DNA from: Candidatus Tayloriibacteriota bacterium
Lineage (GTDB): Bacteria; Patescibacteriota; Minisyncoccia; Phycocordibacterales; PALSA-1337
Assembly: GCA_023269245.1 (NCBI GenBank)
Contig: JAHFMB010000005.1
Span: 5,869-28,445 of the forward strand
Length of the DNA stretch: 22,577 bases
Direction: 5' to 3'
Shown here: one piece after another, positions 4,409 to 22,541 of the stretch
How positions within the stretch are numbered: the stretch's first letter is position 1
Layout: every line of letters begins with the position of its first letter
Notes under the pieces: generated by a model
What the model was told of the DNA's origin: nothing
The model's database searches: none
The model's input: the letters and a program-made list of their open reading frames with translations, nothing else
Translations under genes and position numbers: made by a program

Positions 4409-5551
4409 TTATTTCACCACCTCAGCAACTCCACCTTTCATAACTCTCACTGTTATCGCGCGGTCAACTTCGCAATCACTATTGAAGGTAAACTGCCCAC
4501 TGACACCAGCATATGAACCAAGTGTATGTATGAGATAATTTGAAACCGACACCGGTGTTTGAGCGTCTGCATGTGCAAGCCCCTCAGCAAGAATCCGGAT
4601 TGAATCGTAGCTATTTGCCGCATGAGGAGATGGGTATTCGCCGTAACGTTCTTTGTATGCTGACTTGAATGCGGTAACGTTCGGATGTTCACCTTGAGAT
4701 GGATCCGGTGTATACGCGTAGTCGGCATAAAAAACACCCTCCTCAAGATCCTTATGTTTGAACTGCGGATTCATGGTAGTCCAGTTCTCGCTCACGATCG
4801 GTTTTGTCAGACCGAGGTCGCTGATCTGCTTGAACATCGGTTCAACAGTATTATAAATATTCGTGGTCACAAGGACATCATAATCTTTTTCCAAACCCTT
4901 GAGCTTGGTAATCTGTGTTCTGAAATCAGAAGTTGCTTGATCAAATTTTTCCTGATCAACAATTGTGCCACCGAGCGCCTTCAACCGTTCAACAGTTTTG
5001 TCCTGAATCCCCTGGCCATAATCGTTATTCGGCATCAAGAATGCAACGCGTGGCTTGGGGAATTTCTGTGCTATAAAATCGGCAATGGCCGGACCATAGC
5101 TATCAGCAGTCAATGCGAGTCGGCACGTGAGAGGATTGTTGTCTTTATACGCCGGGATGGCGGCTGACGGAACTACGCTAAAATTGCCATCGGTCCTGAT
5201 TACTGGTCCAACGGCCGCGGCCGCTGACGATCCGTCAAGGAAAAAGAACTCGATGCCCTGTCCTTTCAGTTTTTCGTACGCAGGAACCGCGCGTTTGGAG
5301 TCGTAGGCGTAATCTTCGATAACAGTCTCGATGTTACGTCCATTGATGCCACCAGCCTTGTTTATATCATCGACTGCCAGGGAAATACCATTCAGGCTAA
5401 TCTTGGCAAATGCTGCTGCAGGGCCAGTTGGAAATGAAACGACGCCAATTTTGATGCTATCTGTCGCATGTTGTTTGCCTGAAGTTGCCACAAGCCAGAT
5501 AATGATTAACAAGACAATGACAGCAATGAGAATCTTTGTTGTTTTATTCAT
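4409..5551 (-). CDS. LivK-like substrate-binding protein (receptor 1), membrane-anchored
   Basis: 380 aa from the ATG at 5551 (MNKTTKILIAVIVLL). A start 10 codons earlier would overlap the upstream gene and precede the natural basic-plus-hydrophobic N-terminus. Residues about 7-23 are a membrane anchor with no lipobox Cys. The type-I solute-binding domain begins IKIGVVSFPTGPAAAFAKIS and has the family marks INKAGGINGR, VIEDYAYDSKRA and the late SYDSIRILAEGLAHAD. The first-lobe ligand loop reads DGSSAAAA then VVPSAAIPAY. The LivJ-type disulfide is absent (Tyr at the first Cys site, no Cys in the loop), and single Cys occur elsewhere. Last gene of the six-receptor run, 19 bp after receptor 2, and 2 bp before a leftward consensus promoter. 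Ligand unknown. Confidence 0.9.
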   Translation of the reverse strand: MNKTTKILIAVIVLLIIIWLVATSGKQHATDSIKIGVVSFPTGPAAAFAKISLNGISLAVDDINKAGGINGRNIETVIEDYAYDSKRAVPAYEKLKGQGIEFFFLDGSSAAAAVGPVIRTDGNFSVVPSAAIPAYKDNNPLTCRLALTADSYGPAIADFIAQKFPKPRVAFLMPNNDYGQGIQDKTVERLKALGGTIVDQEKFDQATSDFRTQITKLKGLEKDYDVLVTTNIYNTVEPMFKQISDLGLTKPIVSENWTTMNPQFKHKDLEEGVFYADYAYTPDPSQGEHPNVTAFKSAYKERYGEYPSPHAANSYDSIRILAEGLAHADAQTPVSVSNYLIHTLGSYAGVSGQFTFNSDCEVDRAITVRVMKGGVAEVVK

Positions 5552-5570
5552 ATAAATTTTGTCATGGCTA

Positions 5571-6689
5571 TTAATGTTCATACCTCACAAACTCTCCATT
5601 TTTGATGGTTTTTATGAAAATCGTCTTCAGCGCGTCGCCATTCGTATCGATACTAAATGTACCGCTTGCGCCGGCGTATTCTTGTGTCGCGTAAAGACAA
5701 TCTTTCACTTTTTCAGTATCAGAACCGTTCTTGTATATGCAGGTACTCAACATGAGCGCCGCGTCATACGCGTTGGCGGATACGGTATCAGGTTCGGTGC
5801 CGAATCTCCGCACATACTCAGTAAAAAACGCAACCTGCTCGGGACTTCCGGTCTTGCCGTCAAATGAGTACGGGTAATACAGCCCATCAGCCAAATTGCC
5901 GGCAGCCGTGAATATCTCCGCACTCTCGACGCCAATATTATAAAACTGCACGTTCATGCCAAGGTCATGAGCCTCTTTCATAATGATTCCCGCTTGTTTC
6001 GGCACGGCAATTAGAAATATATCCGTAGGATTCTGCGCCTTAATTTTGGTCAGTTGCGCCACAAAATTGGCATCCTTTGGATCAAACTTTTCTACAAGAC
6101 CAACTCTTTTGCCATTGGCCTCAAGAATGGGGGTAATCTGTTTTATATACGGGTCGCTGATAGCAGTATTCAATGCCAAAAAATGTATCGTCCCTCCTTT
6201 CATTTTCGAGGCCACAAACGGTCCGAAGACCGGCACCTCCTGTGAAGTATTATATATCGTTCGAAAAATGTAATCGCCCGCTTTCGACAATTCGTCAGTT
6301 TGAGCGCCGGGTATAATGAGAATTGTTTTGTTCTGTTCGGCCACCGGTGCAACAGCCAGAGCTTCCGACGAACCGCCAGGCCCGATAATGTACCCAACTT
6401 TGTCGAGATCAATGAGTTTCTTCACTGCCGAGACAGCGGCGGTCGCCTCGTATTTCGTATCTTCAAACAAAAAGTCCAGTCTCGCATGGCCAGAGGTCGC
6501 ATCTATTTTTTCTGCGGCTAGCGTAAGAGCGTTTTTGACATATTCGCCGACATCCGCGCGATTGCCGCTGAGCGGGATAGCCACGCCGACTCTGACTGTT
6601 TGCGGCGTTGTTGGCCGCGAAGCAGCGATGAGCCAAATGACGATCGCGATAATAATCAGTGAGAAAATTATTTTCGCTGGGGTATTCAT
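5571..6689 (-). CDS. LivK-like substrate-binding protein (receptor 2), membrane-anchored
   Basis: 372 aa. N-terminal anchor (KIIFSLIIIAIVIWLIAAS), then the binding fold from VRVGVAIPLSGNRADVGEYV. Ligand-side loops are IIGPGGSSEALAVAPVAEQN and IIPGAQTDELSKAGDYIFR. The second lobe ends with NAYDAALMLSTCIYKNGSDTEK and YAGASGTFSIDTNGDA. The first-lobe disulfide is absent (FEDTKYEA has Tyr where LivJ has Cys). A Cys pair flanks the late helix (STCIY and VKDCLY), as in receptors 3 and 4, and probably makes a local disulfide outside the cell. A promoter, TTGAAG-N17-TACAAT, ends 6 nt before the ATG, so this gene may be transcribed on its own as well as from upstream. Confidence 0.92.
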   Translation of the reverse strand: MNTPAKIIFSLIIIAIVIWLIAASRPTTPQTVRVGVAIPLSGNRADVGEYVKNALTLAAEKIDATSGHARLDFLFEDTKYEATAAVSAVKKLIDLDKVGYIIGPGGSSEALAVAPVAEQNKTILIIPGAQTDELSKAGDYIFRTIYNTSQEVPVFGPFVASKMKGGTIHFLALNTAISDPYIKQITPILEANGKRVGLVEKFDPKDANFVAQLTKIKAQNPTDIFLIAVPKQAGIIMKEAHDLGMNVQFYNIGVESAEIFTAAGNLADGLYYPYSFDGKTGSPEQVAFFTEYVRRFGTEPDTVSANAYDAALMLSTCIYKNGSDTEKVKDCLYATQEYAGASGTFSIDTNGDALKTIFIKTIKNGEFVRYEH

Positions 6690-6724
6690 GGTGTTATTGT
6701 ATTCCAGACATTACCGTACTTCAA
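6690..6724 (-). promoter_or_regulatory. Promoter of receptor 2, -10 ending 6 nt before the ATG
   Basis: Minus strand: TTGAAG (6719-6724), 17-nt spacer, TACAAT (6696-6701), 6 nt, ATG at 6689. The -35 overlaps the last codons of receptor 3. It predicts a leaderless mRNA and independent expression inside the array. Confidence 0.5.
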
Positions 6725-7709
6725 CTACCTCATTCCCCTTCACTTGCTTGAGAATAAGAGGTCTCTTATATACACCTAAGCTATCAAATAAGCCTGATGA
6801 GTCAAGCTTCTTTTTAATGCACAAGGAGTCGCCTCCACATTCTTTCAACGTCGTCGCGGCAATATGCGCAGCCTGTTTTGATAGTTCATACACTGCACCT
6901 TGCGTACCTCCAAGATCTCCTGTGAAAGAATAGAATACGTCTGGAACCAACGTTCGTACAGCTGGCAATTCAGTGACGTACGTACCAAACATAGGTACGG
7001 TTACACCGAGCTGGCGCAACTTGATGACACCACTACCAAAGAAGAATGCCGCGTCCGGAGAATAGATAGCATCCGGTTTTTCAATTTTAATTTTTGCCAA
7101 TTCAGGCGCCACATCGACTGTAGCGTCTACAAATGCATGATCAGTAATCTCGCCCTTAAATGCGGCCTTAAACACTTTCACATGTGTCTCAGAAAATGCA
7201 TTCTTATAGCTTACGAGTGCAACTTTCTTGTATCCACGTTTAGTCATCTCCTGCGCAATAAATGTTGATTCATTTTCAAGCGAATACTGAACATTAAAGA
7301 AATTACCGCCACTCTGTGTATACAGGTCGCTCGATGCGGCTGAAGGTACTAGAACAACCGCACCAGTCTCTTTGATACGTGGAATGACGGCCTCCTGTGG
7401 AGAACCGCAGGCTGGACCTATGATGACATTAATCTTTTCAAATTGAACCAGCTTGTTAAATGCCGAAACTGCGTCCTTTGGCTCACATTTGTCATCTTCA
7501 AACACAAACTGAACATCTGGCGTGGAAGATGCTTCAGCCAAAACTCCCTTGCGAATTTCCTCACCATAATCGGCAAATGGACCAGAAAGTACAGCGATAA
7601 CACCAACACGAAGATTTTTAGCGGTCGGCTTTTCACCCTTAGTCGCGATAATCCACGCAATAAGTGCGACAATAATAACTGTAATTATTATTTTTGTCGT
7701 CTTATTCAT
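6711..7709 (-). CDS. LivK-like substrate-binding protein (receptor 3), short form
   Basis: 332 aa, about 40 shorter than its neighbours. The loss is in the second lobe: the usual segment 'F..Y..RYG..P....A..YD' before the last helices is missing, and the chain runs directly from SFTGDLGGTQGAVYELS into AAHIAATTLKECGGDSLC. The anchor (residues about 7-22) is almost the same as in receptor 1 (MNKTTKI). The first lobe keeps the LivJ-type Cys pair: Cys75 in FEDDKCEPKDA and Cys101 in IIGPACGSPQEA. A second pair (ECGGDSLC) lies near the C-terminus. Ligand loop LVPSAASSDLY. It starts 5 bp after the stop of receptor 4, with a TAAAAT ending 7 nt before the ATG. The deletion probably alters the ligand-site rim or the permease-docking face. 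Confidence 0.9.
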   Translation of the reverse strand: MNKTTKIIITVIIVALIAWIIATKGEKPTAKNLRVGVIAVLSGPFADYGEEIRKGVLAEASSTPDVQFVFEDDKCEPKDAVSAFNKLVQFEKINVIIGPACGSPQEAVIPRIKETGAVVLVPSAASSDLYTQSGGNFFNVQYSLENESTFIAQEMTKRGYKKVALVSYKNAFSETHVKVFKAAFKGEITDHAFVDATVDVAPELAKIKIEKPDAIYSPDAAFFFGSGVIKLRQLGVTVPMFGTYVTELPAVRTLVPDVFYSFTGDLGGTQGAVYELSKQAAHIAATTLKECGGDSLCIKKKLDSSGLFDSLGVYKRPLILKQVKGNEVVEVR

Positions 7710-7714
7710 ACCCT

Positions 7715-8833
7715 TTATTTTACATCAACCAACTTCCCTCCCTTGATCTGCTTCAAGGTAAACTCACGTTGTGTATCTCCATTTGCGTCCATGGTAATCA
7801 CCCCACTAATGCCTTGATATCCTGAGGTTTTATACAGTTCGGCCTTTATACATTCCGGGCTATCGCTACCACATGCTTCAATCGCATTCAAAAGAACATT
7901 ATATCCGTCATATGCAAGAGCTGGATAAATCTCTGTAGAAGGAGTTGTCTTGTATGTATCGGCATACCTTGTAAGCAGTGAAATCAATTTTGGTGAATTG
8001 CTGTCATACTTGTACACCGACGCGTACATGCCATCCGCCAATGGATTTGTCACAACCTGTTTGACGCCCATATATTCGTTTCCGATAACCGGCGCATTGA
8101 TTTTCAAGTCGCGCATCTGTTTGATCGCATTGTTCATGGTGACCGTCGAATTCAACACCAAAAGGATTGCGTCCGGTTTGACCTGCCCAAGCTTCAACAG
8201 CTGAGTCTTCATGTCGGTATCAGTCGGCACCACACTTTCGGTAGCCGCGACACTGTTGCCCACAACCAAACTGAATTCCTTTATAAATGCGTCCTTCCAG
8301 CCAACCGTGTAATCAGCCGTCTCAAAAAGCACCGCAACTTTTTTATAGTTGAACGAACCCAACAAACGAGAAGCTGCTTGAGCGGTCACGATCGACGACG
8401 CAGATGTCCTGAAAATATAATCGCCCGCATCGGTTATTTTCGGCGAGGTGGAAACTGGCGTCAAAAGAATGACTTTATTCTGCTCTGCAATCGGGGCTGC
8501 CGCGAGCGTCGAGCCGCTGCAAACACCGGATACAAGGACTTTGACTTTATCGATGCTGACCAGCTTGTTTGCCGCAGCCGCCGCTTTTTTTGGATCACAC
8601 GCGTCATCCTCATAGATAACTTTGACTTTCTTGTTGCCGACCATAGCACGGTCAGCCGAAGCCAGTTTGAATCCGTTGGCAATATCAGCTCCAGTATCAC
8701 CAGCAACAGGCCCGGTGAATGGTCCAAAATAGCCGATCTTGATAGTGTCGGTAGATGATGAACTGGTGCGTCCAAAAACAGCAATCAACACAATAATGAC
8801 GATAATGAGTATTACGATAATAATCTTCTTCAT
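7715..8833 (-). CDS. LivK-like substrate-binding protein (receptor 4), closest to classical LivJ
   Basis: 372 aa. Anchor MKKIIIVILIIVIIVLIAVF, then a Ser/Thr linker, then the binding fold from IKIGYFGPFTGPVAG. The stretch YEDDACDPKKAAAAANKL, with Cys79 and Cys105 (SGVCSGST), corresponds to the disulfide loop of E. coli LivJ (Cys53-Cys78), with the ligand serine in the SGST turn. The second ligand loop is LLTPVSTSPKITDAGDYIFR. The second lobe has YPALAYDGYNVLLNAIEACG and a local Cys pair 321/328 (CGSDSPEC), then YQGISGVITMDANGD. Of all the receptors this one looks most like an amino-acid binder. It lies 19 bp after receptor 5 and 5 bp before receptor 3, within the run. Confidence 0.93.
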   Translation of the reverse strand: MKKIIIVILIIVIIVLIAVFGRTSSSSTDTIKIGYFGPFTGPVAGDTGADIANGFKLASADRAMVGNKKVKVIYEDDACDPKKAAAAANKLVSIDKVKVLVSGVCSGSTLAAAPIAEQNKVILLTPVSTSPKITDAGDYIFRTSASSIVTAQAASRLLGSFNYKKVAVLFETADYTVGWKDAFIKEFSLVVGNSVAATESVVPTDTDMKTQLLKLGQVKPDAILLVLNSTVTMNNAIKQMRDLKINAPVIGNEYMGVKQVVTNPLADGMYASVYKYDSNSPKLISLLTRYADTYKTTPSTEIYPALAYDGYNVLLNAIEACGSDSPECIKAELYKTSGYQGISGVITMDANGDTQREFTLKQIKGGKLVDVK

Positions 8834-8852
8834 GAAATTGGTATAAAAACTA

Positions 8853-9974
8853 TTAATACAACACCTGCTTTTTCGACTTTATAATCTTCGCCACATACGT
8901 ACGCACACCATCATGCTTTTCGTTGATGGTAATTCTTCCTGACGCACCTTCGTAATCCTTAAGGCCTGCAAGATATCCCTTTATGTTATCGGGATTATTA
9001 CCATATTCCCTGATAGCATCAGCAATAATGTAAACGCCGTCATATGATTCGGCGGTAAAAATACCGAACGGAGGTACATACCCAAAGGCGTCCACGAAGC
9101 TGTTGTGGAATTTCTTACTCTTGGGATTATTGACTGGATCATAGTTCGGCCCGGCAAAAATCATGCCTTCGTAGATCCAAGGGAACGAGTCAATCTGTGG
9201 TTGACTGATGATGATGTCGTTGCCGAAAAGTTGTGTGTGGATGCCCAAGTCACTGAGCTGTTTCATAAGATTGAGTCCGGCATCAGGGCGCTGTGGACTG
9301 AGCAACAGTCCATCGATGCCTGCCGCCCGGACTTTTGCCAGAATCGTTTTGAAATCATTGCTATCCGGCGCAAATCCTTCGTAGACACTCACCTTGCCAC
9401 CGCGAGACTCAATCTCTGTTTTGAACTGCTCGGCAATCGGCCGCGCATAATCAGTCTGTTCGTAAATCACGCCAAAGTTCTTGCCCTTGAGCTTGTTGAC
9501 CGCAATCTCAGCAAGAATACCCGATTGGACAGTCGATACGGACGTTGTTCTGAAAATATATTCTCCTTTTGAAGACATGACCGGGCTCGAAGTAATGCCT
9601 GCGAGCATGATGACCTTATTTTTTTCTGCAATGGGCGCAATAGCGGCACTCTCAGGGGTACAGTGGCCACCAAGAATGATCTTGACTTTATCAATCGAAA
9701 TGAGTTTCGTGGCAGCGTTTGTCGCATCCTTGCTGTTGCACTTGCCGTCTTCGAAGATGATTTGAAGACGCTTGCCGTCTATGCCTCCGGCTTTGTTGAT
9801 CTCATCCATGGCCAGCTTGCCGGCCTCGTATGCACCGTATTTTTTGACTGATCCTGAAAGATCGGAAATGTATCCGACTTTGATTGTGCCCGAATCACCG
9901 CTCGAAGCGATAAATATAATGACCACAAGAATCGCCAGCACTATTACCGTCCAGAACTGAGCCCGTTTAGACAT
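8853..9974 (-). CDS. LivK-like substrate-binding protein (receptor 5), membrane-anchored
   Basis: 373 aa. Anchor at residues about 7-23 with no lipobox. The fold begins IKVGYISDLSGSVKKYGAYEAG and has the classical EINKAGGIDGKRLQIIFEDGKC. Cys79 and Cys105 (LGGHCTPESA) match the LivJ disulfide and sit at exactly the same residue numbers as in receptor 4. Ligand loop MLAGITSSPVMSSKGEYIFRTT; hinge and second lobe SYDGVYIIADAIREYG and YEGASGRITINEKHDG. No late Cys pair. It is preceded by an 84-bp gap, larger than most in the run, so a local promoter is possible although none is clear. Substrate probably an amino acid or related small solute, by family only. Confidence 0.92.
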   Translation of the reverse strand: MSKRAQFWTVIVLAILVVIIFIASSGDSGTIKVGYISDLSGSVKKYGAYEAGKLAMDEINKAGGIDGKRLQIIFEDGKCNSKDATNAATKLISIDKVKIILGGHCTPESAAIAPIAEKNKVIMLAGITSSPVMSSKGEYIFRTTSVSTVQSGILAEIAVNKLKGKNFGVIYEQTDYARPIAEQFKTEIESRGGKVSVYEGFAPDSNDFKTILAKVRAAGIDGLLLSPQRPDAGLNLMKQLSDLGIHTQLFGNDIIISQPQIDSFPWIYEGMIFAGPNYDPVNNPKSKKFHNSFVDAFGYVPPFGIFTAESYDGVYIIADAIREYGNNPDNIKGYLAGLKDYEGASGRITINEKHDGVRTYVAKIIKSKKQVLY

Positions 9975-10058
9975 GATAGTAAGATATAAGGGTGGTATTT
10001 AAACTACACCCACATTGTACTCCTTTTGGGTAAAAAGAAAATGGCTTGTACATTGAGG

Positions 10059-11135: not shown

Positions 11136-11170
11136 GAATATGATGATAACACAGGATATTAGGTATTCAA
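11136..11170 (-). promoter_or_regulatory. Promoter of receptor 6 (head of the six-gene run)
   Basis: Minus strand: TTGAAT (11165-11170), 16-nt spacer, TATCAT (11143-11148), 7 nt, ATG at 11135. Near-leaderless layout. The 17-bp palindrome lies 63 bp further upstream. Confidence 0.4.
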
Positions 11171-11232
11171 CATCATGTTAGTATAACAAAATATGACCCA
11201 AGGGAACACGACCGCATCTCCTCAAACAAAAG

Positions 11233-11249
11233 TGACTAAATTTTAGTCA
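11233..11249. promoter_or_regulatory. Perfect 17-bp palindrome, candidate operator of the TrmB-type regulator
   Basis: TGACTAAA-T-TTTAGTCA has perfect 8-bp arms and reads TGACTAAAATTTAGTCA on the minus strand. It matches 15 of 17 positions of the site in the regulator's own promoter (13510-13526). It lies about 98 bp upstream of the receptor 6 start. Because A and T runs flank it, it could instead be a weak AT-rich bidirectional terminator behind the double receptor, whose stop is 47 bp away. Confidence 0.45.
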
Positions 11250-11295
11250 TTTTTTCGAAAGAGAAACAGCCCCTCGTCCTTCAACCTCGAAATTA

Positions 11296-12519
11296 CTACT
11301 CCTCCAGCCTCACAAAGGTTCCGCCTTTAAAAATCTGCGTGTCTGTATACGCGGCTCTCGTCCCCGTCATATCAAATGAAACAGAGCCTGAGTACCCTGA
11401 ATAGGTGAAATGATCGTTGAGTGTGTCCACCCAAGAGTCTTTCCCTCCTGCACTGATAAGCCTCCCAATTATCTGGATTGCATCATACCCAAAATCACTG
11501 CCGAACTGCGGATCAGACGAATATGCCGACTTGTATGCTTTGACGAATTCCGGAGTTTTGGTTTCTGACATAACTGTAGCAACACATCCTTCGAAAGTAT
11601 CTGCGCCCACTGCCGAAATGTACTGACTAACTGTAAGCGCAAGATTGGCATCACACAGCAGATGTGGTTTTGATGCGGGATATTTTTTCATCTCATTGAG
11701 TATCTTTACTCCCGTTTCAAGAGGTACAAATATGGCATAGGCCTCATTGCCTGATGCTGCCACCTGGGAAACCTCAGTACGAATGTCGGAATTCCCTTGC
11801 ACGGAGACGAGGTCAACTTTGAGGCTTGACGGAGCGGCCGCTTTGAATAAATCACTGTTTGTTTTGAAAAGATTATTATCGCTGGCATATATGATACTGA
11901 TACTCTTGTAGTGCTTTGCGGCCTCAGTTGCCAGTGAGGTAAATAAACCAGCTCCCTGCGGCATCAGCTCGAAGACGCGATCTGTGTTGTGGGATAATTC
12001 ATCGCCAAGAATGAACATAAGCTGACCTGCCTTGTTTACTTCAGGCTTGGTAATTTCAACCGTTGGTGAACTAATCGAGACAATAATATCTGCATGATCC
12101 AGTGAAGTCAGTTTTTGGTACGCAGAAAGGGCATCCTTGGTTGTATATTTATCATCCTCAAAAATAAGTTTGATAGACTTCTGTTCCCCAGCCGGCAATG
12201 CTTTCAAGCTCATTTCCATGCCATTTTTTACTGTTTCGCCAATAACGCTATATTGGCCAGTGAGTGGCAGAATGACACCGACAGTGACCTGTTGATTCTT
12301 TACTGCAGACTTCTCGAGTGTGGTGAATTTTCCATTACGAAAGATGTGTCGTTCCGAAACTGCAAATCGCGTTCCTGTCTCATCAAATCCCACATGCCCT
12401 GACGCACCATCGAATGATGACTTCGAGATCGAATCAACCCACTTATTTTTAGACACATCAAGCAAGTTCCTGACGATGGTAATAGAGTCATACCCCCAAT
12501 CAGCCCCAATCAGCCCCAA
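11296..12519 (-). CDS. C-terminal piece of a frameshifted double substrate-binding protein (second receptor domain)
   Basis: 407 codons from a TTG at 12519. Residues 1-67 are not a start but the missing end of the upstream receptor domain (GADWGYDSITIVRNLLD ... SGHVGFDETGTRF). A short linker (LEKSAVKNQQ) leads into a complete second binding domain beginning VTVGVILPLTGQYSVIGETV, with FEDDKYTTKDALSA, SISSPTVEI and a C-terminus FKGGTFVRLEE. No signal or anchor precedes this domain, so alone it would stay in the cytoplasm. The second domain resembles the first closely (FEGCVATVMSETKTPEF against FEGCISTNLPNTMTDSF), pointing to an old duplication and fusion. Expression needs frame restoration or TTG reinitiation; otherwise this is half of a pseudogene. 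Confidence 0.8.
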   Translation of the reverse strand: MGLIGADWGYDSITIVRNLLDVSKNKWVDSISKSSFDGASGHVGFDETGTRFAVSERHIFRNGKFTTLEKSAVKNQQVTVGVILPLTGQYSVIGETVKNGMEMSLKALPAGEQKSIKLIFEDDKYTTKDALSAYQKLTSLDHADIIVSISSPTVEITKPEVNKAGQLMFILGDELSHNTDRVFELMPQGAGLFTSLATEAAKHYKSISIIYASDNNLFKTNSDLFKAAAPSSLKVDLVSVQGNSDIRTEVSQVAASGNEAYAIFVPLETGVKILNEMKKYPASKPHLLCDANLALTVSQYISAVGADTFEGCVATVMSETKTPEFVKAYKSAYSSDPQFGSDFGYDAIQIIGRLISAGGKDSWVDTLNDHFTYSGYSGSVSFDMTGTRAAYTDTQIFKGGTFVRLEE

Positions 12520-12520
12520 T
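12494..12520. repeat. 10-bp tandem repeat causing the frameshift (phase-variation candidate)
   Basis: The plus strand has CAGCCCCAAT at 12501-12510 and again at 12511-12520, with a further partial copy (CCCCAAT) at 12494-12500. On the coding strand the unit is ATTGGGGCTG. With one copy removed the minus strand reads M-I-G-A-D-W-G-Y-D straight through. With the extra 10 bp the frame hits TGA at 12500-12502. Confidence 0.9.
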
Positions 12521-13393
12521 CATGGGTTCTGATGAACCGAATGTTGATTTATATTCAGATATAAATGAATCCGTCATGGTATTTGGTAGATTGGTTGATA
12601 TACAACCCTCAAAAACGCCCGGCCCTAATGCTTCAACATATTTGGCAAGATCAATTTCAATATTTGCATCACAAATAAGAGAAACCTTCTTGGTGCCTTT
12701 TTGGGCAACAAACTCCTTGAGAAACTTGATACCATCTGTCGAAGGTACGATAAGTGCAAATGCATCCGGGTTGTCCGCAAGCATTTTTGTTACATCCGAT
12801 CTAATGTATGAACCATTCCCGATCTTAACTTCACCAAGCGCTCCATTTTTGAGGCCTTTTTTGAAATAATTGACGTCAGTGGTATATAGGTCAGAAATAT
12901 TACTGTAGACAACAGTGATTTTTGGATATTTTTCAGACGCAAATACGCCAAGATCAGTGAATAACGGATAACTGAATGGGAGCATTTGGAATATTGAATC
13001 TTTTTCGTGCGCCTGTGATTCAAAAATCTGAATAACTGGTAAATGCGATTCATTCACCAGTGGCGTGATCGCCTCCAACGTAAGACTATCCAAATTGATC
13101 AGTATGTCGATGTGATTGATGTCAACAAGCTTATGGAACGCCGACAAACCAATTTTTGGATCAAATTTACTATCCTCAACAAAAAGCTTGATGCGGGGAT
13201 CCTTTTCCGCATTCATACGTACCGCATTCAAAAATGATTCTCCGAGAGTTCCATACTGTCCGCTCAGCGGTGCTATAACTCCGACGTTTATAGTATTTCC
13301 ACTTTTGTGCGCATAACCACGAACAATCGAAATCGCCACAAAAACAATAATTACTAGCAGGATTAGGCCCAACCATTTTTTTGATGTTTTCAT
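12500..13393 (-). CDS. N-terminal piece of a frameshifted double substrate-binding protein (anchor plus first receptor domain)
   Basis: 297 aa from the ATG at 13393 (MKTSKKWLGLILLVIIVFVAISIV); a further in-frame ATG 10 codons upstream lies beyond the promoter. It has an anchor at residues about 7-24, then the binding fold INVGVIAPLSGQYGTLGESF, EDSKFDPKIGLSAF and LVPSTDG-like second-lobe strands, and stops at SEPMIGADWG, about 70 residues short of a full domain. The missing end is encoded in the next frame. With one 10-bp repeat unit removed, 11296-13393 is 696 codons including the stop: anchor, receptor A, linker, receptor B. As it stands this piece lacks the last helices of its second lobe and is probably unstable or inactive. 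It faces the TrmB-type regulator across a 156-bp divergent promoter region. Confidence 0.85.
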   Translation of the reverse strand: MKTSKKWLGLILLVIIVFVAISIVRGYAHKSGNTINVGVIAPLSGQYGTLGESFLNAVRMNAEKDPRIKLFVEDSKFDPKIGLSAFHKLVDINHIDILINLDSLTLEAITPLVNESHLPVIQIFESQAHEKDSIFQMLPFSYPLFTDLGVFASEKYPKITVVYSNISDLYTTDVNYFKKGLKNGALGEVKIGNGSYIRSDVTKMLADNPDAFALIVPSTDGIKFLKEFVAQKGTKKVSLICDANIEIDLAKYVEALGPGVFEGCISTNLPNTMTDSFISEYKSTFGSSEPMIGADWG

Positions 13394-13427
13394 CCGCCCA
13401 GTATAGCGCCAGCAATAAAACAATCAA
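13394..13427 (-). promoter_or_regulatory. Promoter of the double receptor gene
   Basis: Minus strand: TTGATT (13422-13427), 16-nt spacer, TATACT (13400-13405), 6 nt, ATG at 13393. Leaderless layout again. CCGCCCA at 13394-13400 has its inverted copy TGGGCGG at 13441-13447, so the promoter lies between two arms of a 7-bp inverted repeat. Confidence 0.5.
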
Positions 13428-13508: not shown

Positions 13509-13542
13509 TTGACTAAAATTTGATCATATTTTAAGATAGAAT
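13509..13542 (+). promoter_or_regulatory. Promoter and candidate operator of the TrmB-type regulator
   Basis: TTGACT (13509-13514), 17-nt spacer, TAAGAT (13532-13537). An overlapping, better -10, TAGAAT (13537-13542), ends 7 nt before the ATG. The spacer holds TGACTAAAATTTGATCA (13510-13526), a near-palindrome equal at 15 of 17 positions to the perfect palindrome at 11233-11249. Binding there would block polymerase, suggesting autoregulation. Confidence 0.5.
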
Positions 13543-13549
13543 AACCCCT

Positions 13550-14401
13550 ATGAGAAACACGCCTTCAAGCATAGATGAATTAGATATTCTTGCCATCACT
13601 CCCTCTGAGGAAAAAATCCTTGCTGCCATTTCGGTGCAGGCGCGCAGCATCACGGATATTGCCAACCTCACCCGAGTAGCACGTACTTCCCTTCTCTACA
13701 TACTGACGAAGCTATACCAGCGTGGCCTCGTCGAGCGACACCAAAAGGGTAAAAGAATGTTCTGGAAATCGAGCTTCCATAAAACACTTGAACAACTGAG
13801 TAATCCTCGCAACCGTTCCACGGCAACCACATCCGTCAATTACAATCACGCACAAGATGGGGTCGTCATTCATTCTGGAGTCCCTGCCATCATGAAGATC
13901 TTTGAGCGACTCATTGAGCAGCCGAAAGGATCACGTGTATACGGAATTCAGCCGGACAACTCAATTAAATATGCATTACGAAAAGTGGCAGCTCAGGATT
14001 GGACCCGTATCAACACGACATTCAAAGAAAAGAAGTTTATTTTTGAAGGAATTGTGCACGAAAAATCAGTCACGACCATCATTTCCGAAGTTGGCCGAAA
14101 AAAAGCAGTCGATATCTTCAACAGCTTCATCGGCCGTCTCCAAGACTATGTAAAAATCCCCGACGAATTCGCCAATGTTGAAGCGGAAATATACATCTTT
14201 GGCGGTTCAGCCTTCATCATCAACTGGCATGAGGAAATCGCCATCGAGGTCGTCGACAAACATATTGTTGCCCTACTCCTTGCCATGTTCTCCTGCGTCA
14301 AAGAACTCGGTCAGAGATATAGTCAAAACGAGAAAATGAAACAGTATGGGGATATCATTCAGAAAAAATCGCCGCCTACTCCCCCAAATACGCCTCAATG
14401 A
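13550..14401 (+). CDS. TrmB-type winged-helix transcriptional regulator
   Basis: 283 aa. Residues about 15-73 form a winged helix of the TrmB/MarR kind: the opening ITPSEEKILAAI, the recognition helix region RVARTSLLYILTKLYQRGLV, and a wing RHQKGKRMFW. The rest (about 95-265) is an alpha/beta domain starting VVIHSGVPAIMKIFERLIEQ that resembles the effector-sensing part of TrmB proteins, which regulate sugar or amino-acid transport in many archaea and some bacteria. The C-terminus is a polar, Pro-rich tail. It is encoded opposite to the receptor genes and divergent from the double receptor, and its end overlaps the end of livG by 26 bp. Its own promoter contains the palindrome seen again ahead of receptor 6, so it probably controls the array. 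Ligand unknown. Confidence 0.82.
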   Translation: MRNTPSSIDELDILAITPSEEKILAAISVQARSITDIANLTRVARTSLLYILTKLYQRGLVERHQKGKRMFWKSSFHKTLEQLSNPRNRSTATTSVNYNHAQDGVVIHSGVPAIMKIFERLIEQPKGSRVYGIQPDNSIKYALRKVAAQDWTRINTTFKEKKFIFEGIVHEKSVTTIISEVGRKKAVDIFNSFIGRLQDYVKIPDEFANVEAEIYIFGGSAFIINWHEEIAIEVVDKHIVALLLAMFSCVKELGQRYSQNEKMKQYGDIIQKKSPPTPPNTPQ

Positions 14402-15128: not shown

Positions 15129-15133
15129 GTCGT

Positions 15134-16231: not shown

Positions 16232-16305
16232 GAAAATAAGGTAGCGCTTAGGGATAATTCGTACAGATAAAGTATAGCAATATGGAGTAAAAAAACCACC
16301 ACCCA

Positions 16306-16329
16306 GGTTCGACTCCCGTCGGGTCCACA
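16306..16329 (+). other. tRNA 3'-end remnant (T-loop to acceptor end), possible attachment-site scar
   Basis: The 24 nt begin GGTTCGACTCCCG and end GGGTCCACA, the pattern of a tRNA T-loop (TTCGACT), T-stem 3' strand (CCCGT), acceptor 3' strand (CGGGTCC) and discriminator A. The bases just before (CCA at 16303-16305) do not complete the T-stem, and no D-arm, anticodon arm or 5' acceptor strand (GGACCCG) lies upstream, so this is a fragment and not a gene. Short tRNA 3' ends are typical crossover scars of tyrosine-recombinase elements. No integrase or second copy is in the window. Confidence 0.6.
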
Positions 16330-16386
16330 TACGAAGACAGCGCGGATTTTTGTTTTATTCAACTTCTACAAACTGTCCAGCTCTTA

Positions 16387-17490: not shown

Positions 17491-17503
17491 AAATATAATT
17501 ATA
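17491..17503 (-). promoter_or_regulatory. -10 element (TATAAT) before receptor 10
   Basis: Minus strand TATAAT at 17498-17503, then 7 nt, then the ATG at 17490. It overlaps the stop codon of receptor 11. The -35 is poor. It fits the same near-leaderless layout as livF and lexA. Confidence 0.35.
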
Positions 17504-18623
17504 ATGTGTTAAACGGAACAAGTTTTCCTTCTGTGATGCTTTGGATGAGGACGGGCGTCGTATCAGCGGCATGATTGGTGTTGAATTTGAACGAGGTGTT
17601 CGGTGTCACAAATGTACCCTGTTCAAGCGTTGTAGCTACATCGGCGCCCACGGGAGTCTGTGCAATTGCCTGGGCCAATACATACACCGCGTCATAGGCG
17701 CGATCAGCAGATTTGTCTGGTTGTACCCCATATTTCTTCATGAACTTATCAGCAAATGAGGCCGGTGAGAAGTTCCAATTGATGAGCACAAATCCATTGA
17801 ACATATTTGGATCTACACCTTTGATCGAAAGTGCGTCCTGAATACCAATATGAGTAATATATGTCGGCTTGAATCCAAGTGCATTCGCCTGTTGAACAAA
17901 AGTTACCGGGTCAGGACCTATCATATCAAGAAATACCAGGTCGACTTTTGCCTGCTTGAGTTTGAGGATCTGTGTTTTGAAATCATTATTGCCAATTTGC
18001 TTATATGTTTCCGAAATAAGTTGTTCCTTTCCCATTTCCACTTGCATGGCGTTGAGTGTCTTTTCGATGGATTCTGCAAACGAACTTTCAAAACGAACTA
18101 TACCAAGCTGTGTGTATTGAGCACCCTTGAGATATGACGCAAACGTGCGCACGATGGTATCAAATTCTGTCATCATCACAAACGCGTGGTCATTGGTATC
18201 AAACGCGCCAGGAATACGAGGGTTCGACGGAGACACAACGACGACTTTGTTTGTCTTTGCGAGCGAGAAGAGTGGTTGTGTCACGAAGTCAAAGTTACTA
18301 CCAATGATGGCGCCAACCTTGTCGATACCAGTGACCTTTTGAAAAAGTCCTGATGATACCTTTGGATCGGTCTGGTCATTTTCCCATACAATCTGGACCG
18401 GTCGACTGCTAATCCCGCCAGCGGTATTGATCTCGTCAACAGCTAACTGGATACCTTTGTGTGACATTTCACCAAAGGCTGCTGCGACACCTGTCTCAGA
18501 AATAATTGCCCCGATCTTGATCGGCTCTTTCGTAGTAGAGCTCGGCGTCGGCGAACCGCCAAAGATGACGATGAGGACGATAATGACGACCGCGAGGATG
18601 ACTATGGTGATGAGTTTTTTCAT
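17499..18623 (-). CDS. LivK-like substrate-binding protein (receptor 11), membrane-anchored
   Basis: 374 aa from the ATG at 18623 (MKKLITIVILAVVIIVLIVIF); 14 upstream in-frame codons fall in the divergent promoter region and are rejected. The anchor and a short Pro/Ser/Thr linker precede IKIGAIISETGVAAAFGEMSHKG. It has the classical DEINTAGGISSRPVQIVWENDQTDPK. No Cys is visible in the extracellular domain. Ligand loop GSNFDFVTQPLFS and VVVSPSNPRIPGAFDTNDHAF; second lobe RAYDAVYVLAQAIAQTPVG. Its first-lobe opening (ISETGVAAAFGEMSHKG) is closest to receptor 1 (SFPTGPAAAFAKISLNG), which suggests these two are sister copies. Divergent from the acyltransferase across a 162-bp region. Confidence 0.92.
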   Translation of the reverse strand: MKKLITIVILAVVIIVLIVIFGGSPTPSSTTKEPIKIGAIISETGVAAAFGEMSHKGIQLAVDEINTAGGISSRPVQIVWENDQTDPKVSSGLFQKVTGIDKVGAIIGSNFDFVTQPLFSLAKTNKVVVVSPSNPRIPGAFDTNDHAFVMMTEFDTIVRTFASYLKGAQYTQLGIVRFESSFAESIEKTLNAMQVEMGKEQLISETYKQIGNNDFKTQILKLKQAKVDLVFLDMIGPDPVTFVQQANALGFKPTYITHIGIQDALSIKGVDPNMFNGFVLINWNFSPASFADKFMKKYGVQPDKSADRAYDAVYVLAQAIAQTPVGADVATTLEQGTFVTPNTSFKFNTNHAADTTPVLIQSITEGKLVPFNTL

Positions 18624-18692
18624 GAATAAATGGGTGATTACTATAGGCAAACTATAGCAAAGCAATGGCTATATATCTATACTTTCACAACA

Positions 18693-18721
18693 TTGACTAT
18701 TCCCTATTTTTTTGATACTAT
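18693..18721 (+). promoter_or_regulatory. Strong promoter of the GNAT acyltransferase
   Basis: TTGACT (18693-18698), 17-nt spacer, extended -10 TGaTACTAT (hexamer 18716-18721). The start point should be near 18728, giving a leader of about 58 nt. Unlike many genes here it is therefore not leaderless. Confidence 0.7.
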
Positions 18722-18785
18722 TTTGCGGAATTTGGAACACGAATCACTGTTGCTTTACAAGCACAACCACGAAAGACCAAGACCA

Positions 18786-19553
18786 ATGAAGGACGCAACT
18801 GTTACGGCAACTCTGTTGGCAGCAACAGGCACGGCGCGGGAGGAAAGGTACAAGCCAGCACGCTTCGCAACAACAGCCGAAGAAGTACAACTTGCGCAAC
18901 GACTGCGCTATGACGTATTTGTTGAGGAAATGGGGAGGGGTCGTCGAGTTGACTCTGGTCGCGACGAAGATTGGCTTGACCGAACCTGCAAGCATCTCAT
19001 TGTTGAAAATGCCGCTGGCGAAGTTGTGGGCACCTACCGGTTGCAAACATGGACCGACGCCCGCAAGTACCACGGACTATATTCGGCAGGGGAATTCGAA
19101 ATGAAACCTTTCGAGCCGCTCGCCGACAAGATCCTTGAAGCGGGACGTGCCTGCGTCAAGAAGGCAGACCGCAATCTGTCGGTTCTCAACTTACTCTGGC
19201 GAGGCATTGGACAATACGCCCGAGAAACAGGAAGCGAATGCCTTCTCGGCTGCAGCTCCCTTTCGAGTGTGGACCCAGCAATCGCGGCATCGGCATACAA
19301 ATGGTTCGTCGAGAATGGACACCTCGTCGAAGAACAATACCGAACGGTTCCGCACGCATCTGGTGCCTGCCGGCTCGATGTATTCTCAACTGAACCACTC
19401 AAGATACCCAAGCTTCTAAAGGCGTATCTGCGAATCGGCGCCAAAGTTTGCGGTCCCCCGTCTATTGATTCAGACTTCGGGACCACGGACTTCCTCACAT
19501 TCCTGAAGGTCAAAGACATCCCCGACGATGTCCTCGCAAAATTCGTGCTTTGA
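18786..19553 (+). CDS. GNAT-fold N-acyltransferase, OlsB/hemolysin-like or autoinducer-synthase-like
   Basis: 255 aa from the ATG at 18786 (MKDATVTATLLAATG). The frame is open back to 18630, but that part covers the promoter. The core resembles OlsB/hemolysin and acyl-homoserine-lactone-synthase-like acyltransferases: LRYDVFVEEMG (41-50), Asp/Glu cluster RDEDWLD, CKHLIV (68-73), GEVVGTYRL (78-86), LEAGRACV (117-124), LWRGIGQYA (138-146), LLGCSSL (153-159), and the C-terminal signature VCGPPSIDSDFGTTDFLTFLKV (221-242). Known members transfer a fatty acyl group from acyl-ACP to an amine, for example ornithine in ornithine-lipid synthesis. The substrate here is unknown. It splits livHM from the receptor genes but has its own strong promoter and terminator, so it is a separate unit. 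Confidence 0.8.
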   Translation: MKDATVTATLLAATGTAREERYKPARFATTAEEVQLAQRLRYDVFVEEMGRGRRVDSGRDEDWLDRTCKHLIVENAAGEVVGTYRLQTWTDARKYHGLYSAGEFEMKPFEPLADKILEAGRACVKKADRNLSVLNLLWRGIGQYARETGSECLLGCSSLSSVDPAIAASAYKWFVENGHLVEEQYRTVPHASGACRLDVFSTEPLKIPKLLKAYLRIGAKVCGPPSIDSDFGTTDFLTFLKVKDIPDDVLAKFVL

Positions 19554-19580
19554 GCACAGCAACGGCTGATTGTCTTCCAA

Positions 19581-19613
19581 ACATCCAACGGGTTACTCCG
19601 TTGGGTGTTTTTT
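19581..19613 (+). terminator. Intrinsic terminator after the acyltransferase
   Basis: ACATCCAACGG (19581-19591) pairs with CCGTTGGGTGT (19598-19608), 11 bp with one G-T pair and a 6-nt loop, followed by a run of T to 19613. The T-run overlaps the livM stop codon from the other strand. Confidence 0.9.
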
Positions 19614-20478
19614 ATAACCTATATTCCCCTATCAATCCCTGCGGTCTATACAACATGAGCAGAATCAAAATAACGCCGTAGACCACCTGTCTCATTTGCG
19701 CAGCAATATCCGATGGAAAACCGACAAAGCGCAAGATCTCTGGCAACAAGATCAAACAGACCGCACCGATAACTGCGCCTTTATTATTTGCCAAGCCACC
19801 TAGGATCACAATGGCAAGCAAGAAGATGGATTCATTCAAGGTAAATGTGGATGGATCAATGAAGGTAATGTACGAAGCGAAGAGCGCACCGGCAATCGAG
19901 GCGAGAACAGCACCAATCACGAAAATACCCAATTTGTACCAGAGTGTGTGGTACCCAAAGACGCGAATCGCTTCTTCATCCTCACGGATTGCTTTGAGGA
20001 CGCGACCAAATGATGAACGAGTGACGAAGACGCAGACACCATACACAAGGAGTCCGAGTACGATCGCTAATATAAGGAATGAAAGATTGTCAGAGAACGT
20101 AAATCCGAACAATGAAGGACGTGGAATACCTGGAATGCCAAGTGGTCCGCGAGTCAGCGATTGCCAGTTGAGAAAGATGCTATAAATAATGACGTTGAAG
20201 CCGAATGAGCCGAGCGCGTAATAGTCGTCTTTGAATTTTGATAGGACGAACCCAATCGCCAAACTCAAGACGGCAGTGATGACCATGCCGAGAATCAGTG
20301 CCACAAAGAAATTCATCCCCGTGGTTGTCAGTAAAATCGCCGTGACATATGCACCAATACCATAGAATGCCGCCTGCGTAATCGACAGCAGTCCAGCATA
20401 TCCGACAATGAGGTTGAGCGACAACCCGAGGATGCCGTAGATGCAGATGAGAATGGCGAGGTGGATGAGGTATTCCAT
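19612..20478 (-). CDS. livM: LivM-type branched-chain amino acid ABC permease
   Basis: 288 aa, highly hydrophobic with about 8-10 membrane helices. The N-terminal half has LSLNLIVGYAGLLSITQAAFYGIGAY, the standard LivM/LivH opening, then YYALGSFGFNVIIYSIFLNW and RGPLGIPGIPRP. The cytoplasmic coupling loop, SSFGRVLKAIREDEEAIRVFGY, is the EAA-like element that touches the ATPase. Next comes ASIAGALFASYITFIDPSTFTLNESI, and the chain ends LMLYRPQGLIGEYRL. Together with LivH it makes the translocation pore. It starts 1 bp after livH, so the two are co-translated. Only livM in the window. Confidence 0.95.
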   Translation of the reverse strand: MEYLIHLAILICIYGILGLSLNLIVGYAGLLSITQAAFYGIGAYVTAILLTTTGMNFFVALILGMVITAVLSLAIGFVLSKFKDDYYALGSFGFNVIIYSIFLNWQSLTRGPLGIPGIPRPSLFGFTFSDNLSFLILAIVLGLLVYGVCVFVTRSSFGRVLKAIREDEEAIRVFGYHTLWYKLGIFVIGAVLASIAGALFASYITFIDPSTFTLNESIFLLAIVILGGLANNKGAVIGAVCLILLPEILRFVGFPSDIAAQMRQVVYGVILILLMLYRPQGLIGEYRL

Positions 20479-20479
20479 A

Positions 20480-21346
20480 TTATTTCTTCAAAATCCCCTG
20501 TGGCCTCCACAGCAGAAAAATAATAAGCACACCAAACGCGATTGCATCTTTCCATTCTCCTGAAATCTTCCAGATACCGAAGTTCTCAACGAAGCCGAGG
20601 AAGAACGCGCCGATAACACCACCATAAATATTACCAATGCCACCAATGATAGAGGCAATCACACCCTTCAAAAGAAGTGACATACCCATGGTCGGCTCGA
20701 TGCCTGTATCAAACCCGATCAGGATACCGGCAAGTCCCGCGATCGATGAGCCGATGAAGAAAATCCACCCAATAATCTTTGGCGTGTTGATACCGACAAT
20801 CTTCGAGACTTCTTCGTCATCACTGACTGCTTTCACCGCTTTGCCGAAAATGGTGAACTTCAGCACACACGCCATGACGGCCATGATAACTAGTCCGCAG
20901 ATGAGAATTATGAGCTGGACTTCGGTGATAACGCCGCCAAAAATATCATAGACCTTCCCTGCTCCCGCGCTCTGCGACAAGGTCTGGAACTGGCTCGTAA
21001 ACAAAATAGCGATGATGGCCTGGATTGCGGTGAATGCACCGAGCGATCCGACCAGGAGCACCATGCCGGATGATTTGCGTGCACGGAGCGGGGAGTAAAT
21101 AAACTTGTAGAGTAGGAATCCAAGGATGCCGGCAATCAAGAATCCGAGAATGATCGAAAGGTAGAGATTGAGTCCGAGTGTTTTGTAGAAATAATAGACT
21201 GAGTAACCACCAACTGCAGTCAGCGCACCGTAGCCGAGATCAAAAAACTTAACAGTGCCGTAGATTAAATTAAAACCGAGGGCAACCATGGTGTAGATTG
21301 CTCCGGCAATAATTGAATTGACTATCAGTTGAGGAATGATGTCCAT
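20480..21346 (-). CDS. livH: LivH-type branched-chain amino acid ABC permease
   Basis: 288 aa, about 8 membrane helices. Opening QLIVNSIIAGAIYTMVALGF, then NLIYGTVKFFDLGYGALTAVGGY, typical of LivH. The coupling loop is FGKAVKAVSDDEEVSKIVGINTPK, the element that contacts LivF/LivG. Then GSSIAGLAGILIGFDTGIEPTMG and LLKGVIASIIGGIGNIYGGVIGAFFLG, ending LLWRPQGILKK. It pairs with LivM, whose ATG is 1 bp downstream. An intrinsic-terminator-like hairpin in the 79-bp gap separates it from the receptor gene upstream, so livHM may be expressed below or apart from that receptor. Confidence 0.95.
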   Translation of the reverse strand: MDIIPQLIVNSIIAGAIYTMVALGFNLIYGTVKFFDLGYGALTAVGGYSVYYFYKTLGLNLYLSIILGFLIAGILGFLLYKFIYSPLRARKSSGMVLLVGSLGAFTAIQAIIAILFTSQFQTLSQSAGAGKVYDIFGGVITEVQLIILICGLVIMAVMACVLKFTIFGKAVKAVSDDEEVSKIVGINTPKIIGWIFFIGSSIAGLAGILIGFDTGIEPTMGMSLLLKGVIASIIGGIGNIYGGVIGAFFLGFVENFGIWKISGEWKDAIAFGVLIIFLLWRPQGILKK

Positions 21347-21380
21347 AGAATGGTAGTCAGGACGCCATTAAATATATACC

Positions 21381-21408
21381 AAAACCCGCTCTGTGGCGAG
21401 CGGGTTTT
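21381..21408. terminator. Terminator hairpin between receptor 12 and livH
   Basis: AAAACCCGCTC (21381-21391) and GAGCGGGTTTT (21398-21408) pair perfectly over 11 bp with a 6-nt loop and end in TTTT on both strands. The stem is symmetric. The leftward reading would end or attenuate the receptor transcript just before livH, a common way to make much more binding protein than permease. Confidence 0.75.
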
Positions 21409-21425
21409 GTTGATTGCGAGAGTGT

Positions 21426-22541
21426 TTATTGGCTAATCGTGACCGGCTTCCCATCTTTGATCATACGCAGGACCGCTTTTGACATGACCAGACCTTCGGT
21501 ATCAATACTCAATCCATCACCAAGAGCTCCGTCGAATCCTTTGACATGTGCCAGAGCATTCTGTATTTCCGGACCGGTCGGGATAGTTTTGCCATTGCCA
21601 GCTTCCTCTACTGCATGAACAAGAAGATTGAATGAATCATAACCATTTGCCGCGCCCAGCTTCGGACCTTCACTGTACATGCTTGTATAGAGATCAATAA
21701 ATTTTTGCATCGGATCAGCGGCATTCACATACCACATACCTTCGAACAACGAGAGTTGATCCGAAAACTCGAATGTCTCCATGCAAGTAACCGGCGTCAC
21801 GATTCCCGCTTCGCGAAGTTGTTTGGTGATAATTTCAAGTTCCGGAGTGCTCAAAATAAGTATGTATATCTCTGCGCCAAGATTTCTTGTCTTGTTGATG
21901 ACAGTCCTGAAATCACGCGTACCAGTTGTAAATCCTTCAGAAGCAAGGATTTGTACATTGGTACCGATAATACTATTCTCAAAGGCATGAAGTAGTGCAT
22001 CCCCTCCCGGATTATCCTGTTGTCGGAAGAATACGACTTTTCTAATATTGCGTTTCCGTAATTCCTGCACCATGCGTTCCGAGTCTTTATAAGCCGGCGT
22101 ATAATGGATAAAATTATATGCCCCATCGGCCACATGTGGATCCGAAGCAAAGTCATTGATGTGTGGAATCTGTGCCTTCTCCGCTATTGGACTGACCGTA
22201 TTTCCTACGGGCGAACCAAAAGAAATAAGCGCACTAACTCTGTCGATAGAAATGAGCTTGTTGGCTGTGGTAGCGCCTATCGAGGGCTTGAACTGATCGT
22301 CTTCAATAACAACTTCATACCTATACTTCGTATTCCCAAGTGTGGACTCGGCCAGTTCAATGGCTTTTTTATTACTCTGACCGAGCATGGCAATGTCTCC
22401 CGTCAGAGGAAGAGTGACTCCAATTTTAATGACTGGTTTTTCTATCGACACCTGCTGACGGTGTTGCTTTGTATAACCAAATGCCACCGCGGCCATAGCA
22501 ATAATGATGACTGATATTATGATACATGTTGATGTTTTCAT
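21426..22541 (-). CDS. LivK-like substrate-binding protein (receptor 12), upstream of livHM
   Basis: 371 aa, starting MKTSTCIIISVIIIAMAAVAFGYTK. The only N-terminal Cys (Cys6) lies before the hydrophobic stretch and has no lipobox around it, so the anchor is again a helix. The fold begins IKIGVTLPLTGDIAMLGQSNKKA and has VVIEDDQFKPSIGATTANKL, ISFGSPVGNTVSPIAEKA and IPHINDFASDPHVADGAYNF; no LivJ Cys pair. The second lobe has NGYDSFNLLVHAVEEAG and FDGALGDGLSIDTEG. The gene stands directly upstream of livHM on the same strand with a terminator-like hairpin between, the classical livK-livHM order. It is therefore a good candidate for the constitutive receptor of the system. Confidence 0.93.
   Translation of the reverse strand: MKTSTCIIISVIIIAMAAVAFGYTKQHRQQVSIEKPVIKIGVTLPLTGDIAMLGQSNKKAIELAESTLGNTKYRYEVVIEDDQFKPSIGATTANKLISIDRVSALISFGSPVGNTVSPIAEKAQIPHINDFASDPHVADGAYNFIHYTPAYKDSERMVQELRKRNIRKVVFFRQQDNPGGDALLHAFENSIIGTNVQILASEGFTTGTRDFRTVINKTRNLGAEIYILILSTPELEIITKQLREAGIVTPVTCMETFEFSDQLSLFEGMWYVNAADPMQKFIDLYTSMYSEGPKLGAANGYDSFNLLVHAVEEAGNGKTIPTGPEIQNALAHVKGFDGALGDGLSIDTEGLVMSKAVLRMIKDGKPVTISQ

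Follow-up and report, generated by a model that had tools for sequence, protein, structure and literature searches.

Here, we analyse a gene cluster in a window of 22,577 nucleotides (the whole stretch of DNA under study; positions 5869-28445 of contig C38) from the draft genome G000 of an uncultured, Taylorbacteria-like member of the Patescibacteria, whose closest named LivM (94% identity) comes from a Candidatus Taylorbacteria metagenome-assembled genome (MAG). The cluster encodes a Liv-type importer, LivHMGF, together with many type-I binding proteins (receptors), and we consider it likely that about eighteen divergent receptors of this organism form an array on one shared LivHMGF pore. From the data presented below, we infer that each receptor docks on LivHM, that transport takes place, that the ligands differ and that receptors are exchanged by transfer. 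A sequence-only reading of the same DNA had proposed a receptor array and had named two findings that would speak against it, namely further livHMGF sets elsewhere in the genome and near-identical ligand pockets; we looked for both, and neither was found. Many biosynthetic pathways are missing in Patescibacteria, and little is known about their uptake of building blocks.

One pore and eighteen receptors in the host draft

Based on profile searches, the window encodes twelve PF13458 (Peripla_BP_6) domains, all on the minus strand and scoring 72.5 to 181.9 bits (cut-off 31.7); these scores are beyond chance and exclude doubt about the identity of the domains, ten of which were also covered by an all-Pfam re-scan. 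The domains lie where the sequence-only reading had placed them, and its count of eleven loci is right if the frames at 11296-12519 and 12500-13423 are counted as one gene. As it had also stated, livH, livM, a LivG-like and a LivF-like ATPase gene occur once each in the window; the interval that it gave for the system, 4409..22541, does contain the receptors and livHMG, but livF, at about 2603-3340, lies outside. In the direction of transcription, the order is BP12, livH, livM, BP11, BP10, BP9, livG, BP8/BP7, BP6 to BP1, livF, with BP5 to BP1 tightly packed (from an 11-base overlap up to gaps of 21 bases) and with two genes on the opposite strand, an acyltransferase-like gene at 18630-19553 and a regulator at 13550-14401:

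21426..22541, minus strand: BP12 (W12) receptor, directly upstream of livH; PF13458 137.3 bits
21380..21409, minus strand: terminator-like hairpin in the BP12/livH gap; 12 pairs, 7 of them G-C
20480..21346, minus strand: livH permease; PF02653 142.6 bits (cut-off 26.8)
19612..20478, minus strand: livM permease; PF02653 176.3 bits (cut-off 26.8)
18630-19553, plus strand: acyltransferase (PF13444); best NCBIfam matches to the ornithine-lipid enzyme family OlsB, under cut-off
17499..18665, minus strand: BP11 (W11) receptor, likely start at about 18623; PF13458 166.6 bits
16387..17490, minus strand: BP10 (W10) receptor with Trp/Tyr-rich pocket; PF13458 142.3 bits
15134..16330, minus strand: BP9 (W9) receptor; PF13458 133.3 bits; 69% identical copy in the same-genus locus L060
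14376..15131, minus strand: livG-like ATPase; ABC_tran and BCA_ABC_TP_C; LivG 188.6 bits against a cut-off of 362
13550..14401, plus strand: helix-turn-helix regulator, convergent with livG; weak helix-turn-helix matches
12500..13423, minus strand: BP8 (W8), domain 1 of a putative two-domain receptor, with membrane helix; PF13458 72.5 bits
11296..12519, minus strand: BP7 (W7), putative tail of the BP8 domain and second receptor domain; PF13458 87.2 bits
10059..11135, minus strand: BP6 (W6) receptor; PF13458 120.3 bits
8853..9974, minus strand: BP5 (W5) receptor; PF13458 170.2 bits
7715..8833, minus strand: BP4 (W4) receptor, LivK Ser79/Thr102/Glu226 set kept; PF13458 161.5 bits
6711..7709, minus strand: BP3 (W3) receptor; PF13458 86.7 bits; 83% identical copy in locus L059
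5571..6689, minus strand: BP2 (W2) receptor; PF13458 166.5 bits
4409..5581, minus strand: BP1 (W1) receptor; PF13458 181.9 bits
about 2603..3340, minus strand: livF-like ATPase, at the end of the cluster; ABC_tran; start taken from the translation

With two BPD_transp_2 permeases, a LivG carrying the BCA_ABC_TP_C tail, a LivF and PF13458 receptors, the cluster has the parts of a HAAT/Liv importer. Its ATPases match at the family level and do not reach the equivalog cut-offs; the livF-like protein scores 228.9 bits with UrtE and 194.1 bits with LivF (cut-offs 285.8 and 441).

The host draft comprises 813,792 bp in 108 contigs and is 83.39% complete and 0.67% contaminated. It contains 18 PF13458 matches, all over the cut-off; the six receptor domains outside the window, together with a 102-amino-acid (aa) fragment at a contig end, are on contigs C99 (3.4 kb, with receptors only), C37, C40 and C105, and the ratio of receptors to pore is therefore higher than previously stated. 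In contrast, a profile search of the draft for PF02653, the family that covers LivH/LivM and sugar permeases, returned exactly two genes, both in the window, so that no LivHM pair beyond this one was found, and PF00528, the other large importer-permease family, had zero matches in the draft, while the control was positive in 14/14 known genomes. As far as the draft shows, LivHMGF is thus the only classical binding-protein-dependent permease pair. That receptors of several organisms were merged in one draft by binning or assembly is most unlikely: such a merger would fit the 108 contigs, the receptor-only contig and a frame break at 12500-12519, but the twelve domains and the liv genes share a single 28 kb contig, contamination is low, and relatives assembled in few contigs (3 in G020, 4 in G034 and 20 in G060) repeat the array.

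Beside the Liv system, one SBP_bac_5 (OppA/DppA-like) gene was seen in each of the 12 genomes searched, i.e., G000 (L134:1093-2844, contig C40, just ahead of an RNase J gene) and 11 relatives. Ten of the 12 are without a PF00528 match, and the PF00528 search did not cover the remaining two, G016 and G011. The product appears to be a conserved binding protein of the peptide type for which no pore is visible.

Receptors and pore occur together in related genomes

In a set of 147 genomes that includes the host's own, PF02653 scores over the cut-off in 26, and PF13458 receptors are present in all 26; among the 121 genomes without the pore, only ten carry a receptor match, one each and several of them weak (Fisher p = 4.8e-21, uncorrected for relatedness). 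Wherever a genome has at least two receptors (22 genomes), the pore is present as well. PF02653 matches are two in 23 of the 26 pore genomes, one in G116 and three in G027 and G117, where they are fragments judged by profile range, and 14 further genomes have two (13 genomes) or one (G363). In G060 (98% complete, 20 contigs), 31 receptors accompany a single LivHM pair, and PF00528 has no match; similarly, G034 (4 contigs) and G020 (3 contigs) have 14 and 11 receptors, respectively, with two PF02653 matches each and none to PF00528, which is unmatched in 13 of 18 high-receptor relatives. In a census in which five matches per genome stood for at least five, PF13458 was matched in 75/397 genomes of the order and in 29/383 of the class, and first-look receptor candidates numbered 31 in G060, 27 in G425 and 13 in G776 (elsewhere in the class). 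Arrays are patchy and recurrent, and the majority of the genomes of the group are without one.

Gene order was compared in 69 named loci, including L119 and L120, which carry a Deltaproteobacteria label, perhaps through mis-binning, but were kept in the counts. A receptor is directly upstream of livH in 49 of the 52 loci where that gene is visible, which makes this site the one where relatives most often have a receptor; BP12 holds it in the window. Receptors also lie between livM and livG (27 of 57 loci showing both) and between livG and a following ATPase (14 of 53, again loci showing both).

These patterns bear on the idea that the pore is used by a single receptor or by few (BP12 and BP4, for example) and that the rest are tethered sensors, scavengers or contact proteins, which would bind host molecules and inform TrmB-type regulators but have no part in transport. 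In general, binding proteins that do not act in transport are known; moreover, the orphan receptors of C37 and C105 adjoin TrmB-type regulators (L133:5875-6681 and L135:2520-3326), a regulator interrupts the window array, and the site of BP12 upstream of livH is the constant one. However, sensing explains neither why arrays vanish along with the pore nor why receptors accumulate between liv genes, and if the receptors worked independently of the pore, arrays would be expected in genomes that lack it, where each of the 121 has at most one match. We therefore regard a mainly sensory array as unlikely; individual receptors may nevertheless act as sensors or scavengers, as the sequence-only reading had allowed.

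Receptors are divergent and old, and the pore is conserved

The twelve receptor domains of the window share 15-34% pairwise identity (median 22%). In a FastTree phylogeny of 196 receptor domains from 18 genomes, including all 18 domains of G000, the nearest tip was in the same genome for 0/18 G000 receptors and for 12/196 receptors overall, compared with 14.0 expected by chance; in this tree, most copies are not nearest to copies of their own genome, as a lineage-specific expansion would have them. Clustering of the 196 domains gave 95 to 119 subfamilies, depending on the threshold; the 18 receptors of G000 occupy 17 or 18 of them, and 0 to 6 are common to any one other genome.

In the same genus, LivM is 82-94%, LivH 76-93% and LivG 77-90% identical; left out of these ranges are LivF at ~30% in some loci (other ATPases, with livF off the locus) and the LivH of L063 at 28% (contig end). 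The closest locus, L059, has counterparts of at least 40% identity only for BP3 (83%) and BP2 (53%). BP11 has its closest named relative in a Kaiserbacteria MAG (63% identity, LivM 72%) and only 44% identity to same-genus receptors (LivM 84%), a pattern that points to transfer or to differential loss.

Ligand pockets differ between subfamilies

Two pocket definitions were used, a provisional set of 16 columns (set 1) and the LivJ contact list published from docking, as given in the accessible text of PMC6983066. With set 1, G000 receptors and their orthologues (34 pairs) are 73.0% identical in the pocket and 52.9% elsewhere, a pocket value reached by 0/500 random column sets; for paralogues (153 pairs), the corresponding values are 12.7% and 23.7%, with 1/500 random sets as low. 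With that LivJ list and all 18 genomes, orthologues (209 pairs) are 73.3% identical in the pocket and 52.9% elsewhere, paralogues (1361 pairs) 15.2% and 24.0% (Mann-Whitney p = 9.8e-7 for the contrast), and unrelated cross-genome pairs 14.2% and 23.5%. A second alignment, with orthologues defined without the pocket columns, gave 76.0 vs 55.3% (184 pairs) for orthologues and 15.0 vs 23.9% (1359 pairs) for paralogues (p = 1.0e-6), and among its 357 columns, position 226 ranks highest, followed by position 150. Between paralogues, the pocket is the most divergent part; between orthologues, it is among the best conserved. We read this pattern as suggesting that ligand contacts are kept inside a subfamily and altered between subfamilies, as expected for different ligands maintained by selection.

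The pockets are thus not near-identical; the SGST/STSP loops of receptor 4, cited previously as an example of differing loops, turned out to be the LivK-like motif and not an oddity. In an alignment to LivK, BP4 alone of the 18 receptors retains Ser79, Thr102 and Glu226; we take Glu226 and Asp121 to be ligand contacts of LivK, and our literature search on LivK contacts with Glu226 found none described. The top-ranked subfamily-specific column is LivK position 53, a cysteine that in LivK forms a disulfide with Cys78; separately, BP3, BP4 and BP5 are among the receptors that seem to retain both cysteines.

Many receptors for the same ligand, raising its capture at low nutrient, would account for the one fold and the one gene neighbourhood common to all copies. 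We consider such a dosage effect very unlikely, in agreement with the sequence-only reading, because identity is 15-34%, paralogue pockets diverge more than the remainder of the protein, and no two G000 receptors are nearest neighbours in the tree.

Ligand names were sought by two routes and rejected in both. In NCBIfam, the ten receptors scanned (those of the window other than BP7 and BP8) are all far under the cut-offs; the LivK/LivJ equivalog PRK15404 (cut-off 477 bits) was matched best by BP5 at 141.5 bits, and the best match of BP10, urea UrtA, is far under its cut-off. PDB matches by sequence and fold spread alike over leucine-, urea- and aromatic-acid-binding proteins, and we therefore assign a ligand to no receptor.

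Receptors carry an N-terminal membrane helix

An N-terminal hydrophobic membrane helix is present in 169/169 receptor frames with a complete N-terminus, compared with a lipobox-like motif in 1/169 and a C-terminal helix in 0/169. LspA (PF01252) was not found in 8/8 genomes (control positive in 10/14); the lipobox cysteine and LspA that mark the lipoprotein-type anchoring of monoderm bacteria are thus lacking here. The predicted structures of BP12 (predicted local distance difference test [pLDDT] score 90.5, helix at residues 3-27) and BP11 (pLDDT 91.5) both show the helix, then a linker predicted with low confidence and a domain of two lobes, and their nearest PDB entries are Liv-type and related binding proteins (best match of BP12, 3td9).

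BP8 and BP7 as one two-domain gene

BP8 and BP7 read as one two-domain gene with its frame broken at 12500-12519. BP8 covers profile positions 1-300 only, and the BP7 frame covers positions 295-363 and then 24-364; we count one gene because the C-terminal tail of the BP8 domain is found, in another reading frame, at the beginning of the BP7 frame. The second domain of BP7 has no membrane helix of its own. A 10-base direct repeat is present at the break, which may be a slippage site, a mark of a decaying gene or an assembly error. As candidates for two-domain fusions elsewhere, the long frames G004:C7 (804 aa) and G160:C4 (746 aa) resolve into separate open reading frames, and a second two-domain receptor is therefore not confirmed.

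A model for the receptor array

We suggest that the receptors are tethered at the cell surface by the N-terminal membrane helix and a flexible linker, and that each captures a different small molecule and passes it to the one LivHMGF pore. In this model, the receptor would set the specificity, while pore and ATPases would be common and conserved. The receptor set would be drawn from a large pool of old subfamilies common among Patescibacteria, with a selection that differs by species and that was probably shaped by gene loss and horizontal transfer rather than by local duplication. More broadly, we tentatively propose, at somewhat less than even chances, a plug-in diet of Patescibacteria in which one conserved LivHMGF is nearly the sole binding-protein-dependent importer and species gain and lose tethered receptors from a common pool of about a hundred or more old subfamilies.

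Several observations weigh against the receptor array. With 108 contigs and 83% completeness, the draft could be missing another importer; five of the 18 high-receptor relatives do hold PF00528 permeases, one to three each; and ten genomes keep one receptor match without the pore. Other genomes were sampled partly in the tree (G038 with 17 domains of 25 first-look candidates, G143 with 7 of 17), which lowers the number of own-genome matches. All twelve domains have the same fold, and at ~22% identity the alignment may be wrong at individual pocket positions; BP1, BP5 and the C40 receptor have no orthologue within the distance limit (BP5 does have a 59% copy in L073). Finally, the pockets of BP7 and BP8 are not better conserved than the remainder (36 vs 41% and 50 vs 51% for pocket vs elsewhere), and their gene may therefore be decaying.

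The E. coli LivJ/LivK-LivHMGF system (HAAT) has the same permease, ATPase and receptor families and more than one receptor per pore, and E. coli has a counterpart of the hairpin found here between receptor and livH. The cluster described here differs in having at least 18 receptors per pore instead of two, in the 15-34% identity of the receptors and in their membrane-helix anchor, and it does not reach the NCBIfam equivalog cut-offs for LivH, LivM, LivG and LivF. According to the accessible text of PMC2978685, the Rhizobium orphan receptor BraC3, encoded by a distant gene, was shown experimentally to feed the Bra membrane complex; there, the receptors are two (BraC and BraC3), and the genome is large and encodes many further importers. 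Receptors far outnumber membrane parts in the TTT/Bug systems of Rhodoplanes and Bordetella, with tandem arrays and presumed specialisation (PMC5994714, available text); the likeness is in working only, as TctC receptors and a TctA/TctB permease are used there and PF13458 receptors here. The Rhodoplanes excess is larger and arose mostly by within-genome duplication, with 234/434 (53.9%) receptors best-matching their own 8.2 Mb genome in the same text, opposite to the 0/18 found here by a different method (tree distance, 18 genomes). In R. palustris, COG0683 receptors annotated for leucine, isoleucine and valine mostly bind other compounds, e.g., aromatic and fatty acids; this organism has a versatile metabolism and about 500 transport proteins (PMC3223731, available text).

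Shared pores are known (LivJ/LivK, BraC/BraC3), and a search of the accessible literature found no receptor arrays of Patescibacteria in print; what looks new is a tethered set of 18 to 31 receptors of old, shared subfamilies, on what seems the sole pore of a classical importer in a genome of at most about one megabase. Should a single pore indeed serve 18 to 31 receptors, the inventory of receptors could be read as a list of the diet, each entry of which can be tested with its own protein. The arrays would also be a natural set for asking which receptor surfaces are compatible with a Liv-type pore, and a reduced genome could widen its uptake cheaply, by adding receptors rather than complete transporters. 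If the plug-in diet is true, the nutrient range would evolve through receptor exchange alone.

Transcription signals and neighbouring genes

The hairpin between BP12 and livH recurs at the same place in relatives: 33 of 38 receptor-livH gaps of the named loci fold below -12 kcal/mol, and 21/38 have z below -3 compared with simple shuffles. Receptor and pore may therefore be separate transcription units. A TATAAT-like string often trails the hairpin in this gap. A sigma-70-like promoter with a 12-of-12 match lies at 4380-4407 on the minus strand, just past BP1 and toward livF; 40 such sites were found against 31.9 expected, and this one may therefore be due to chance.

Regulator genes similar to 13550-14401 flank liv genes in several relatives, in G004 also beside livG, and PADLOC on four window proteins returned only one weak Csa3-like match, to this regulator. 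The acyltransferase gene at 18630-19553, which interrupts the array on the other strand, was not seen in the loci of relatives scanned for gene order. Proteins of 332 aa (1604-2602) and 126 aa (3894-4274) are without a Pfam, NCBIfam or PADLOC match; frames similar to the 126-aa protein are present in L059 and L150.

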